This document shows positions 60,525-64,000 of a stretch of DNA of 64,000 nt, piece after piece; within the stretch, counting starts at the first letter, position 1; each line of letters begins with the position of its first letter. Source of the DNA: Blastopirellula marina DSM 3645 (GTDB taxonomy: Bacteria > Planctomycetota > Planctomycetia > Pirellulales > Pirellulaceae). The notes beneath the pieces were generated by a model, which was given only the letters and a program-made list of their open reading frames with translations, had not been told where the DNA came from and did not search any database. Position numbers and translations under genes: made by a program. The stretch covers positions 4,117,315 to 4,181,314 of the forward strand of contig NZ_CH672376.1 in the NCBI RefSeq assembly GCF_000153105.1. Reading direction: 5' to 3'.

Positions 60525-60704
60525 GTAGGCCCGGTCGGGCTCGAAGCTGGGACAGATTCTTCGGGGAAAACGCCAGTCGGCGCAGAATCCGGCGCAGTTG
60601 GTGCGCCCCCTTCTGAACTCGCCGCAGATCTGGCGTAGGTGATTGCCGTTTGGAGCGGTCTCGATACACGAACGAAGGTGCGGATTTTGGGGCTAATTGG
60701 CTGA
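60525..60704 (+). pseudogene. Decayed protein remnant A, left of the GIY-YIG gene
   Basis: Read on the plus strand from 60525, the frame gives VGPVGLEAGTDSSGKTPVGAESGAVG...DLA, one in-frame stop, then VIAVWSGLDTRTKVRILGLIG and a stop at 60702-60704. Remnant B at 61842 has the same layout without the internal stop. A 27-bp block (60579-60605) and a 16-bp block (60553-60568, CAGATTCTTCGGGGAA) are identical in both. The AGLEPxTD-like start and the final ...AWPxL...TKxxIxxLxG helix recall tails found beside planctomycete tyrosine recombinases, but I cannot confirm that. Confidence 0.55.
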
Positions 60705-60717
60705 AAATCATCACGGA

Positions 60718-61578
60718 TTAGGCGTCGCCATCCGCTCGGTAAACTTCATCTAGCGAGCGCCCCAAAGCATCTTTCCATTCGGTCCAGCCATTTGCTCGGC
60801 GTCCAAGTACGACGATTGCCGCCCGACTGGGAGAATTGAATAGGTAGTCTTGTGTAAACCGTAGATTCGCCCCCTGGTCGATGAGGACGCCGCTTTCGAT
60901 GAGCAGCGTACGAACCGGCTCAATGAGATCGATGCCGGAAGGAGTAATCTCCTTACGAGCTATCGCACCGGCTCGGACAACAAACCCATCTTCGACAAAG
61001 TTGCCTTCTGCGTCACATTCATTCGTTTTAAGGAAGAAAGACTCCGTATTCGTGCTCTTGCTAACGAGCGGTTCAAATACTGGGTAGCCTACGGTCGACA
61101 CCAGAACGTTCAGCGTATCGAAAATGTCGAGCAGATCGGCCTCCATCGGCTCAGTTACAAACGGCTTGCCAGGCTGCACGTCATTATCAATTGCGAAACG
61201 TCCTGTTTCCTTCGCCATCCGCAGGCAGTGCCATTCCAAGTATCGGATGTGTGCCTGAGTAAACGTCTGTATTCGAGAGACGACCAAGACCGCAGTCTTC
61301 CAGAAATGCTTCTTTGAATTGTGATTGTCCAGCCGTTTTCGCACATCCTCAGTCTGACCGATATAAACGATCGGCTTGGCGGATTCTTCGGACTCGCCAA
61401 ACAGAAAATAGACGGCGATATGGCCCAACTCGGCTCGCAGCTTCGCCTCCGCCAAGTCCGACCGAGGGACGACGATTGCCTGGACAGTCCGATTGGTAAA
61501 CTCAGCGATCCGTACGCCGCGTGGTTCGCCTGATGGTAGAAAGATTTGGATGGTCTTAGCGGCTGGATTGGTCATCAT
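60718..61578 (-). CDS. GIY-YIG nuclease with C-terminal DUF4357
   Basis: The 286-residue product has a GIY-YIG-like core: GHIAVYFLFGESE...PIVYIGQTEDVRKRLDNHNSKKHFWKTAVLVVS, with the arginine and asparagine positions of the family, then EWHCLRMAKETGRFAIDN (metal-binding Glu region) and a C-terminal DUF4357-like domain (LLIESGVLIDQGANLRFTQDYLFNSPSRAAIVVLGRRANGWTEWKDALGRSLDE). DUF4357 GIY-YIG proteins are usually encoded in accessory islands and are of unknown function. The ATG at 61578 is chosen; the longer frame from 61776 runs through decayed DNA. Remnants A and B flank the gene. Confidence 0.85.
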   Translation of the reverse strand: MMTNPAAKTIQIFLPSGEPRGVRIAEFTNRTVQAIVVPRSDLAEAKLRAELGHIAVYFLFGESEESAKPIVYIGQTEDVRKRLDNHNSKKHFWKTAVLVVSRIQTFTQAHIRYLEWHCLRMAKETGRFAIDNDVQPGKPFVTEPMEADLLDIFDTLNVLVSTVGYPVFEPLVSKSTNTESFFLKTNECDAEGNFVEDGFVVRAGAIARKEITPSGIDLIEPVRTLLIESGVLIDQGANLRFTQDYLFNSPSRAAIVVLGRRANGWTEWKDALGRSLDEVYRADGDA

Positions 61579-62305
61579 CAGGCGATCTTGCTTTTCGGCA
61601 TCCTGGAATTGCCCACGAAAAGTTGACAGTGGATCGGGAATTGCGTGAAGGTGGCCCGCTAGCATTAAAGGCAGGTCACCGACGATCCCTTTACGACGTC
61701 CCCAAAAAGGGAAGCGAAATCCGGCGCAGTCCGAACACGCCGCGACTCGCGACGATTTGCCGAAGATACGACCCAAGGGAGTGAAAAGCCTCTGAAATAC
61801 GAGGCAGAACCAAAATAGGCGAAGCTGCGAAAAATAAATAAGTAGGCCAGGCAGGACTCGAACGGGAAGCAGATTCTTCGGGGAAGACGGGGGTTGAGGG
61901 CGAAGGCGGCGCAGAATCCGGCGCAGTTGGTGCGCTGGATGGCGAATTTGATGAGGATCTGGCTAAGGTGATCGCCGCTTGGCCGACATTGTCCGAGACT
62001 GCCAAGACGAAGATAGTAAAGGCTCTGGGGGGGCCTAGGAAGCCAGAATAGATTCGCAGGCACCGCGAAGGTCAAATCGCACTCGAAAAAGTGCTTCCCT
62101 TAACAAAAGAGGGCGTGGGTGGGGGCGACCGCTTGAACCACGTAACCACGCTTGGGATAACGATGTTGGATCTTCGCTCGACGTTCATGCTAGGACGCTT
62201 CGTCTAGTTCTTGGGGGTTCCAAGTTGATTTACTACTGGTCGTTAGTCGAAAGCTATCGCGAGGTTTGTCAGCGAATCAAATGTTTGACCTTTCCGTTTT
62301 GGGAA
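61579..62305. other. Decayed accessory spacer (727 bp)
   Basis: It holds remnant B (61842-62051) and otherwise no accepted gene. Frames elsewhere are short or lack character. The stretch from 62052 to 62305 shows nothing recognisable. Confidence 0.5.
61842..62051 (+). pseudogene. Decayed protein remnant B, right of the GIY-YIG gene
   Basis: The plus-strand frame after a TAA at 61839-61841 reads VGQAGLEREADSSGKTGVEG...AESGAVGALDGEFDEDLAKVIAAWPTLSETAKTKIVKALGG and stops at 62049-62051; no start codon precedes it. It matches remnant A position by position. Its 5' edge, read on the minus strand, contains TTCGAGTCCTGCCTGG, like the T-loop and 3' acceptor of a tRNA, although no full tRNA can be folded here. 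This fits a remnant of an integrase tail with an attachment-site-like sequence. Confidence 0.5.
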
Positions 62306-62827
62306 TCACGTCGCTATTTTGGGTTGGGTTTCATCGCCGCAGTTGATGAAGGTGTAGGTCAGGAAGTTGATTTCCTGACGGTTTGGAACCTTTGCAAGGG
62401 TGAACTCAAATACGCGTCGTACTTCATCGGTTGATGTCGCATGAATTTCGCCACCAAGCTTCCCAGGATCGATTAGCTGAAGCTCACATCCGTGTTGTCG
62501 CGCTGCGAAGATATGCCAAAAAGTGTTGTCCTTGTCTCGTCCTGTTAATAGTGACACCAAAGGAAACCTGCCGGATTTTGTCTCGGAAGTTATTTTGTTG
62601 ATTGCGTCTTCCAGGGGCATCCACGTATCCTTGCCTTCAATTCGGTATGCCAAGAGCAAATGAATCTTTTCGAATCCTATGGGCTCGTTTTGGAATTTGT
62701 TTTGATACGGAAATGCATCAGGATCTATTAGTCCGTGCAGCTTGAGTACCGCTTCCATGCCGGATGGCGCACAAGATACGCTAAATAGTTGTCTGTGTTG
62801 CCCGAGTCCCGAGATTGTTGAATTCAT
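62306..62827 (-). CDS. Hypothetical protein (accessory region)
   Basis: I do not recognise the 173-residue product. From the ATG at 62827 it reads MNSTISGLGQHRQLFSVSC, then GMEAVLKLHGLIDPDAFPYQNKFQNEPIGFEKIHLLLAYRIEGKDTWMPLEDAINKITSE, SLLTGRDKDNTFWHIFAARQHGCELQLIDPGKLGG and ends in FINCGDETQPKIAT. It looks like a soluble mixed alpha/beta protein. The frame continues upstream into the IS200 end, so that extension was not accepted. Base composition is poorer in GC than the core genes, which suits acquired DNA. Confidence 0.5.
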   Translation of the reverse strand: MNSTISGLGQHRQLFSVSCAPSGMEAVLKLHGLIDPDAFPYQNKFQNEPIGFEKIHLLLAYRIEGKDTWMPLEDAINKITSETKSGRFPLVSLLTGRDKDNTFWHIFAARQHGCELQLIDPGKLGGEIHATSTDEVRRVFEFTLAKVPNRQEINFLTYTFINCGDETQPKIAT

Positions 62828-63000
62828 GTTTCTTTGTGCGAAAGTGGTTGACAGTACAACATCCGCTGAATGGACGTAGTTTTGTTCGGATAGTTCTCGT
62901 TGGAATCGGATCTGAGTAGAGCGTTGAAAATGGTTGATAGATTGTGTTGTATATACCGGTCGCCGAAGTAGCAATAAGGTTGGCTCTGAACTAAACAACT

Positions 63001-63570
63001 TCCGGCTGGAAGCCGGCAGGTTTAAAGATATTCGTGAGATTCGGACTGAAGTCCTCAACTCACGAAGGAGTAATTTGAAATTGGTCGCCGCCATCGCTGG
63101 GCTCGGTCCCGTCTTGGTGGCGGATATATTCCTGAATCACCTCGTCGGTCACGTTGCCGCTGGTCGCCACAAAGTACCCGCGTGCCCACAGATGCCGACC
63201 CCAATACTGTTTTTGCAAATGCCGAAACTCCATCAACAGCTTCCGTGAACTCTTCCCCTTGATGTACTGCATGATTTTGCTGGGCGCAAGATTCGGCGGG
63301 CACGACAGCAACACGTGAACATGATCTCGCGAGACCGCCCCTTCCAAGATCTCAATCTCGTTGGTGCGACAAACCTCGCGAACCAGTTCCCGCAATCGAA
63401 CGCCGACTTCCCCTGCGAGAATAGGCTTTCGATATTTGGTCACCCAGACAAAGTGGTACTTGATGTCAAAACGACTATGCGAACTGGTGCGGTATCCTTC
63501 CATTCCCCGATTTTAGCCGGAAACGGAAGAACCGAAAGGTTTCGCCTGAAGGCGAGGGTTTTAGACCCAT
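63001..63570 (-). mobile_element. IS200/IS605-type insertion sequence (tnpA only)
   Basis: The element holds one Y1 transposase gene on the minus strand and has subterminal hairpins at both ends, as expected for this family, which has no inverted repeats. At the tnpA 3' side, CCGGCT/AGCCGG (63002-63016) and a nested hairpin with outer TTCGTGAG/CTCACGAA (63031-63066) and inner GGACT/AGTCC are seen; at the 5' side TCGCCT/AGGCGA (63542-63555). No tnpB accessory gene is present. Exact ends are uncertain by some tens of bases. Confidence 0.8.
63060..63503 (-). CDS. tnpA: IS200/IS605 family transposase TnpA (Y1 HUH)
   Basis: The 147-residue enzyme cuts and joins single-stranded DNA. It carries FDIKYHFVWVTKYRKPIL at the start, the HUH metal site His61-Val-His63 in SRDHVHVLLSCPP, YIKGKSSRKLL and the catalytic tyrosine Tyr126 in TDEVIQEYIRHQ. 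Length and motifs are complete, so it may be active. The stop codon lies inside the end hairpin of the element. Confidence 0.95.
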   Translation of the reverse strand: MEGYRTSSHSRFDIKYHFVWVTKYRKPILAGEVGVRLRELVREVCRTNEIEILEGAVSRDHVHVLLSCPPNLAPSKIMQYIKGKSSRKLLMEFRHLQKQYWGRHLWARGYFVATSGNVTDEVIQEYIRHQDGTEPSDGGDQFQITPS

Positions 63571-63724: not shown

Positions 63725-64000
63725 TTGCCGGCGTTGAATTGGGGCTTGATACAGGATGGCGGTGTATTGGAATCGCTGATGCACGCGATTCTTTACGCTG
63801 AGAATCCCCAGACGATATTGTTCGGTCGTCCGGGTAAGGATGCCGGACAGGATGCCCGCACGGCTGATGGGAAAATCGTCTATCAATCCAAGTATCGAGA
63901 CGGCATGGACATGAGTGAGGCCATCAAGGTGGCGCTCAAAGAACTCGAGTTTATCACGAAGTATCGTGAAAAGGACCATGCGAACTACCAGCACTGGGAA
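63725..64000 (+). CDS. Restriction-endonuclease-like N-terminus of a truncated protein, possible defence gene
   Basis: A TTG at 63725, five bases after AGGAGAG (63713-63719), opens a frame that is uninterrupted for 92 codons to the window end. The product has a PD-(D/E)xK-like pattern: Glu16 in the first helix (GGVLESLMHAILY), then LFGRPGKDAGQDAR with Asp43, and VYQSKY with the Gln54-x-Lys56 pair, followed by a helical region (SEAIKVALKELEFITKYREKDH). Such nuclease-like domains are found at the N-terminus of large NTPase-containing anti-phage proteins and of Mrr-type enzymes. What follows is outside the window, so the protein type is unknown. Confidence 0.7.
   Translation, partial: MPALNWGLIQDGGVLESLMHAILYAENPQTILFGRPGKDAGQDARTADGKIVYQSKYRDGMDMSEAIKVALKELEFITKYREKDHANYQHWE

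Follow-up and report, generated by a model that had tools for sequence, protein, structure and literature searches.

Together, the sequence comparisons, structural models and genomic context described here suggest that the open reading frame running off the right edge of the window (the whole 64,000-nucleotide stretch analysed, G000:C2:4117315-4181314 of Blastopirellula marina DSM 3645, on a contig that continues beyond the window edge) belongs to a pair of overlapping genes that is probably a new Avs-like phage sensor, in which a STAND protein with a predicted Mrr-like nuclease head is joined by a coupled second component that is itself probably an RNase. An earlier note, made from the first 92 residues, had proposed that this edge fragment begins a large defence protein, and we confirm that it is the start of a large immune-type STAND sensor protein; the reading of it as an anti-phage or restriction protein of the large NTPase kind likewise gains support from the predicted nuclease head and the STAND NTPase behind it. 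What appears to be new is a Mrr-headed STAND family which the catalogues consulted lack and whose gene is overlapped by that of a partner, the Avs-like kind that it resembles being already known. The features on which this account draws are collected in Table 1.

Table 1. Features of the STAND gene, its partner and the surrounding island. Plain numbers are window positions; locus L002 is C2 4178001-4198000, and a window position equals the L002 position + 60686.
Feature	Position	Strand	Basis or remark
In-window part of the STAND gene (gene 1), residues 1-92, inside the predicted N-terminal Mrr-like PD-(D/E)XK domain	63725..64000	+	ORF, alignment, profile comparison
E16 codon, predicted active-site glutamate	63770..63772	+	Invariant in 4/4 aligned STAND sequences; kept in L020
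D43 to K56 codons (GQDAR...VYQxK); D43, Q54 and K56 predicted to bind metal and act in catalysis	63851..63892	+	Invariant 4/4; aligned to Mrr_cat D, QxK
Partner gene (gene 2), 284 aa, RNWLVH at residues 179-184	L002 6970-7824		Overlap with gene 1 stop; ORF
IS200/IS605-type transposase gene, between attL and STAND gene	63060..63503	-	Pfam Y1_Tnp, E 1e-44
attL: 22-bp copy of tRNA-Met 3' end, in 234-bp repeat (61630-61863) of integrase/tRNA end	61842..61863	.	Left border of island
attR, within tRNA-Met	C2 4204577-4204598		Right border of island
Tyrosine integrase, overlaps tRNA-Met end	L003 5290-6618; tRNA-Met L003 6576-6651		
428-aa gene between hsdM and hsdS	L002 11726-13012		Weak PDDEXK_4 match, E 0.031
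PDC-S11 candidate defence gene, DUF4268	L002 14668-15702		Between hsdS and hsdR; E 9e-119
Cytidine-deaminase domain fused to HATPase_c_4 (RecG-like)	L002 15783-17258 (C2 4193783-4195258)		Between hsdS and hsdR

Gene 1 is open for 92 codons from its TTG to the window edge, with no stop, and an early closure just beyond position 64000, which the earlier note had named as the outcome that would count against it, is not what the contig shows: no stop comes before 1312 codons have been read (L002 3039-6977, 1312 aa, end at C2 4184977). The start signals claimed for it are also borne out, with AGGAGAGAG 5' of the TTG. In the relatives L010 and L009 the start (GTG and ATG, respectively) aligns at the same residue with clear GGAGG-type sites upstream, and in the distant relative L008/L011 an ATG aligns with the gene 1 start, with no evident ribosome site. 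Comparison with a 62%-identical relative over 1311 aligned codons found 349, 266 and 721 differences at codon positions 1, 2 and 3 (27, 20 and 55%, respectively), and by this pattern gene 1 looks like a maintained gene.

Residues 1 to about 150 form a predicted Mrr-like PD-(D/E)XK nuclease head. Glu16, Asp43, Gln54 and Lys56, which had been picked out as an E...D...QxK series, were all found where the earlier note placed them, and together with D39 they are invariant in the four aligned STAND sequences, E16 being replaced by G in a decayed relic from Nostoc azollae. For the L010 relative (residues 1-475), AlphaFold2 with an input of five sequences produced a model of modest quality (mean pLDDT 63.3, pTM 0.39) with a predicted helix at 12-26, strands at 31-34, 42-45 and 51-56, a helix at 63-80 and a strand at 96-101, that is, an alpha-beta-beta-beta-alpha-beta block at residues 12-101 whose pLDDT is 56-93. 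We take this order of helices and strands to be that of the PD-(D/E)XK core, and the E...D...QxK site lies within it, as expected of a Mrr-like member of the superfamily. The 92 residues in the window match no Pfam family at E<=1, so that the verdict on the head rests on the full gene and its relatives. In these, the Pfam family Mrr_cat was matched in one of four aligned members (best E 0.047, short of the curated cut-off), the other three staying unmatched by it up to E<=10, and it is absent from the five Pfam families found at E<=1 in the whole gene 1 protein. The head profile was then compared by hhalign with a Mrr_cat reference set, for which the best 10 of 18 domains from 40 related genomes were aligned and the eight weaker ones left out. 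The resulting alignment scored 20.8 over 80 columns (E 0.01, probability only 4%) and placed E16, D43 and Q54xK56 in register with the Mrr E, D and QxK; its score was reached by none of 200 column shuffles (mean 12.1, maximum 17.7), the reversed profile scored 15.2, and an unrelated control, the partner profile against the same Mrr_cat set, scored 14.8 over 11 columns. A sequence search of the PDB with the head gave a best E of 0.063 to protein kinase chains, which is not useful. The nuclease similarity, for which the earlier note had proposed a profile search, is weaker than the case for the NTPase behind the head; it shows in the register with Mrr_cat and in fold matches to Avs4 and a restriction enzyme (see below), against a blank Pfam result on 92 residues and a low hhalign probability.

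Behind the head, gene 1 residues ~180-350 are a STAND NTPase. In Pfam, nSTAND_NTPase5 matched residues 183-316 with E 2.4e-8 and 34.4 bits, just over its cut-off of 34, and AAA_16, ATPase_2, nSTAND3 and nSTAND1 also matched, each below its own cut-off. We recognise the usual STAND landmarks: Walker A as GPGGIGKS at residue 208 (GPGGIGKSR corresponding to L002 3660-3686), Walker B as VALDDP at 258, the arginine strand as SCR at 289 and GxP as GVPGWL at 347; L010 has VALDAP at the Walker B place, and R291, G347 and P349 are invariant in 4/4 aligned STAND sequences. The P-loop, the arginine and GxP residues and a NB-ARC/NACHT-like fold all agree with membership of the superfamily, and the NACHT/STAND domain that the earlier note had suggested seeking after residue 150 is present as a STAND P-loop NTPase after residue 180. 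The C-terminal region that follows, of ~950 residues, is defined by length only and would be the sensor. No PDB sequence matched the gene 1 protein at E<=1, and the best match of the whole profile was to ArsA (E 0.082 over the P-loop).

When Foldseek's top 1000 matches were re-aligned by VIA-align, the first was Avs4 in complex with a phage portal (8dgf_B, Z 12.0, 256 residues, model 2-311), at a rmsd of 17.2, so large that agreement can at best be that of single domains. Plant NLR chains came next, at Z about 9-10 and rmsd about 3-4 and in most cases over the NTPase alone (model 160-310), and further matches included Avs5 (Z 9.0 and 8.9), other AAA+ proteins (Z about 7-8) and, over model 6-161, the EcoT38I restriction endonuclease (Z 7.7); since a Z under 8 may reflect a common arrangement, we regard EcoT38I as supportive only. 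The 50 matches listed by Foldseek against the PDB begin with NLR resistosomes, Sec18/NSF and clamp loaders, have an AVAST5 filament in 48th place and do not include Avs4. Gene 1 shares with Avs4 (AVAST type 4, 8dgf) the order of nuclease head, STAND NTPase and long C-terminal region, the domain order of Avs4 being nuclease head, STAND NTPase and C-terminal sensor. However, gene 1 matches no PADLOC model at E<=0.1 and nothing in the PDB at E<=1, Avs chains included, and to our knowledge an overlapping partner gene is not part of Avs4. PADLOC 2023 contains Avs4 models, and because gene 1 matches no sequence model we do not claim Avs4 membership; judged by domain order and modelled fold, gene 1 would nonetheless work like an Avs protein. 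When the four relatives were searched against PADLOC, only PDC-S73 and an Aga model were matched, each in one member. PDC-S73, a PADLOC candidate with no description in the library, matches residues 15-215 of the L008 relative (E 2.5e-5, 21.3 bits) but not the B. marina protein at E<=0.1. With the Mrr restriction endonuclease (Pfam Mrr_cat) the head shares E...D...QxK, but in gene 1 it is fused to a STAND NTPase and stays below the Pfam cut-off. In PMC12931631, STAND proteins are described as having an N-terminal effector, a central NTPase and a C-terminal sensor. Avs proteins are seen there as the bacterial equivalents of NLR immune sensors, and Avs1-4 as effectors of the nuclease type, which detect terminase, portal or a different phage protein and then cleave the genomes of both phage and host.

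The start of gene 2 overlaps the end of gene 1 by 8 nt in all three loci with both genes, the overlap reading ATGGCTGA in B. marina and L009 and ATGAGTAA in L010. The partners of B. marina, L010 and L009 are 284, 276 and 319 aa long, and that of B. marina is 64% identical to L010's and 41% to L009's; a distant partner at a contig end in G289 (L016) is 27% identical to it, and there the preceding frame, which has an acidic tail, overlaps by ATGA. We found R-N-x-x-x-H in 4/4 partners including the 27%-identical one (RNWLVH, RNLFLH), a pattern that arises in 45 of 5000 shuffles of the B. marina partner before its conservation is counted. Anantharaman et al. 2013 (PMC3710099) place the HEPN motif, Rx4-6H, at the end of helix 3, note that the R is followed by a polar residue, in most cases N, D or H, and also report HEPN domains fused to STAND ATPases; all four partners carry Rx4-6H and a polar residue next to the R. 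The partner has this motif in common with the HEPN RNases of that paper, but here the genes are separate and overlapping, and a nuclease head is already present on the STAND protein itself. In a model of the partner the motif sits at the end of a helix, at a poor pLDDT of 50.7, so that the fold search made with it says nothing (among the 50 entries listed none was titled HEPN, most being helical bundles, megabodies and rhodopsins). DUF4145, tried by hhalign as a HEPN relative of the partner, was rejected, its best alignment (15 columns over the motif) scoring 15.8, which is inside the range of 100 shuffles (maximum 18.0); of 16 DUF4145 matches 11 went into this comparison, one being set aside for in-frame stops and four for want of a stored locus. 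HEPN_Apea was not used as a reference, having one match in 79 genomes. As the partner also matched no HEPN family in Pfam and no PDB chain, we call gene 2 HEPN-like by motif only, with a probable role as an RNase or RNA-binding protein.

The system is rare. Among sampled genomes of the phylum, the STAND protein was found in 3 of 343 (that of B. marina, G004 and G022), a search with its head gave 3 of 337 (the same genomes) and one with the partner 3 of 337 (B. marina, G004 and G289); within the class the head search gave 2 of 347 (B. marina and G664, which is the genome of L010 and belongs to the same order). A scan of contigs, which was seeded with two short N-terminal peptides and therefore sees close relatives only, confirmed three loci (L010, L011 and L012) among 45 candidate stretches, the STAND genes of L011 and L012 being identical to those of G022 and G004. 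The STAND gene of G022/L011 is 25-26% identical and has no partner in the 12-16.7 kb around it (L008/L011); a search of the G022 genome gave no partner match either, an empty result which alone shows little. IMG/VR yielded one contig (L020), which ends inside the head and on which recombinase-like and ParB-like frames were recognised by reading. An AbiEi antitoxin-like (AbiEi_4) gene overlaps the STAND start on this contig (L020 7306-8013). The plasmid records hold one relative, a decayed piece with many stops from Nostoc azollae (L013 5001-6884, NC_014249.1), from which it follows that the family has reached Cyanobacteria; no STAND relative was found in phage records, and no partner match in plasmids or IMG/VR. 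In L009 an integrase-like frame, recognised by reading only, lies 1.9 kb beyond the pair, and in L010, a Planctomycetota MAG, a group II intron reverse transcriptase/maturase with HNH is encoded downstream of the pair (L010 7830-9818).

From the Avs-like domain order we infer C-terminal sensing, NTPase assembly and head activation, and by the same analogy the pair may have anti-phage activity. In the resting cell the STAND protein would be held off by its NTPase; upon infection a conserved phage protein would bind the C-terminal region, the NTPase would oligomerise, and the nuclease heads would meet and cut DNA. The partner, kept at a fixed ratio by coupled translation, might cut RNA or gate the head, and the cell would stop or die before phage release. 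A more specific version, which we offer tentatively as a possibility that falls short of being probable, is a dual-nuclease STAND immune system, so far undescribed, in which one sensing event activates the Mrr-like head to cut DNA in cis and a HEPN partner to cut RNA in trans, the overlapping genes giving the fixed ratio; if this were true, single-gene relatives would represent a DNase-only form.

The lone STAND gene of L008/L011 could also be read to mean that defence is the work of a single component and that gene 2 encodes an immunity or regulatory protein which keeps the head inactive or tunes it. Both the empty genome search, weak alone, and the unproven fold of the partner would agree with this, but the keeping of RNxxxH in every partner down to 27% identity, together with its frequency in shuffles, fits a catalytic role, and we consider a purely regulatory gene 2 unlikely. 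Mrr is a type IV enzyme, and with a head nearest to Mrr_cat and a type I RM system near the pair it might be proposed that the head cuts foreign modified DNA in a modification-dependent (type IV-like) restriction, with the STAND portion as a NTP-driven assembly motor and the partner as an accessory. Against this, STAND proteins are described with an effector-NTPase-sensor order in PMC12931631. Moreover, the five Pfam families of gene 1 are all NTPase families, so that no DNA- or methyl-binding domain is seen, and we judge restriction of this type to be rather improbable. An addiction module of the toxin-antitoxin kind, serving the mobile island and not sensing phage, would suit overlapping genes in such an element and the overlap with the AbiEi antitoxin-like gene in L020, but a STAND gene stands without a nearby partner in L008/L011, and we know of no usual antitoxin that is a 1312-aa NTPase with a nuclease head. 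Even though HEPN proteins are common toxins according to PMC3710099, we give this explanation very little credence.

As an Avs-like sensor with a coupled partner, the pair would represent an uncatalogued family with the nuclease-STAND-sensor order and without detectable sequence kinship to catalogued types, and would widen the set of known sensors and effectors. Neither B. marina gene has a match in PADLOC (E<=0.1), NCBIfam (E<=1) or PHROGs (E<=0.01), and with both unmatched in PADLOC and NCBIfam the family would be missed by present annotation. Our literature searches found no paper joining STAND NTPase, HEPN, anti-phage and Avs, which does not establish absence from the literature at large, and none that links planctomycetes with AVAST, defence systems and phage; our impression is that the Planctomycetota have been little explored for this type of defence.

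The STAND gene and its partner sit in an island at tRNA-Met which reaches from window 61842 to C2 4204598, the recurrence of the 22-bp tRNA end at the left border giving it a length of about 25.4 kb; the 234-bp repeat has 82.5% identity (E 6e-68). The suspicion that the window ends at the border of a defence island therefore proved sound, the island being real and continuing rightward with a type I RM system, PDC-S11 and an integrase. To the right of the pair are a PLD-like gene, a 134-aa frame, hsdM, the 428-aa gene, hsdS, PDC-S11 (DUF4268), the deaminase-HATPase_c_4 fusion, hsdR with its C-terminal part, a 364-aa frame, a primase/DUF3987 gene and the tyrosine integrase. By its PDDEXK_4 match the 428-aa gene is perhaps another nuclease, and the deaminase-HATPase_c_4 fusion matches HTH families below their cut-offs and, weakly, the Aga SIR2 and dCTPase models of PADLOC. 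The PLD-like gene (L002 7802-9028, PLDc_2 E 2.2e-15, DrmC-like in PADLOC) was considered as a third component and dropped, tblastn finding no copy in the seven stretches from relatives (L008-L012, L016 and L020). G+C is 0.507 in the STAND gene and 0.492 in the partner, against 0.552-0.595 in 4-kb blocks of the window's first 60 kb. Also within the island, a 262-aa frame on the minus strand (window 62306-63094) overlaps the IS200 transposase gene and has no match in Pfam (E<=1) or PHROGs (E<=0.01). An empty att site was sought in the sister genome G339, where three left neighbours are kept; the 18 kb read there contained no att string and no tRNA gene, the genes right of the island were unmatched apart from a paralogue, and no empty site was seen. 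The mobile element and GIY-YIG gene cited in the earlier note as neighbours are both present, but the GIY-YIG/DUF4357 gene (60718-61776) lies to the left of attL and outside the island, in an apparent older remnant. Att-like repeats flank this gene, and the stretch 60525-60653 repeats 61842-61982 at 71%, which points to an older insertion at the same site; with the copy of the integrase end at 61630-61863, the repeats over 60525-61982 are probably what is left of an earlier element that had entered this tRNA-Met site.
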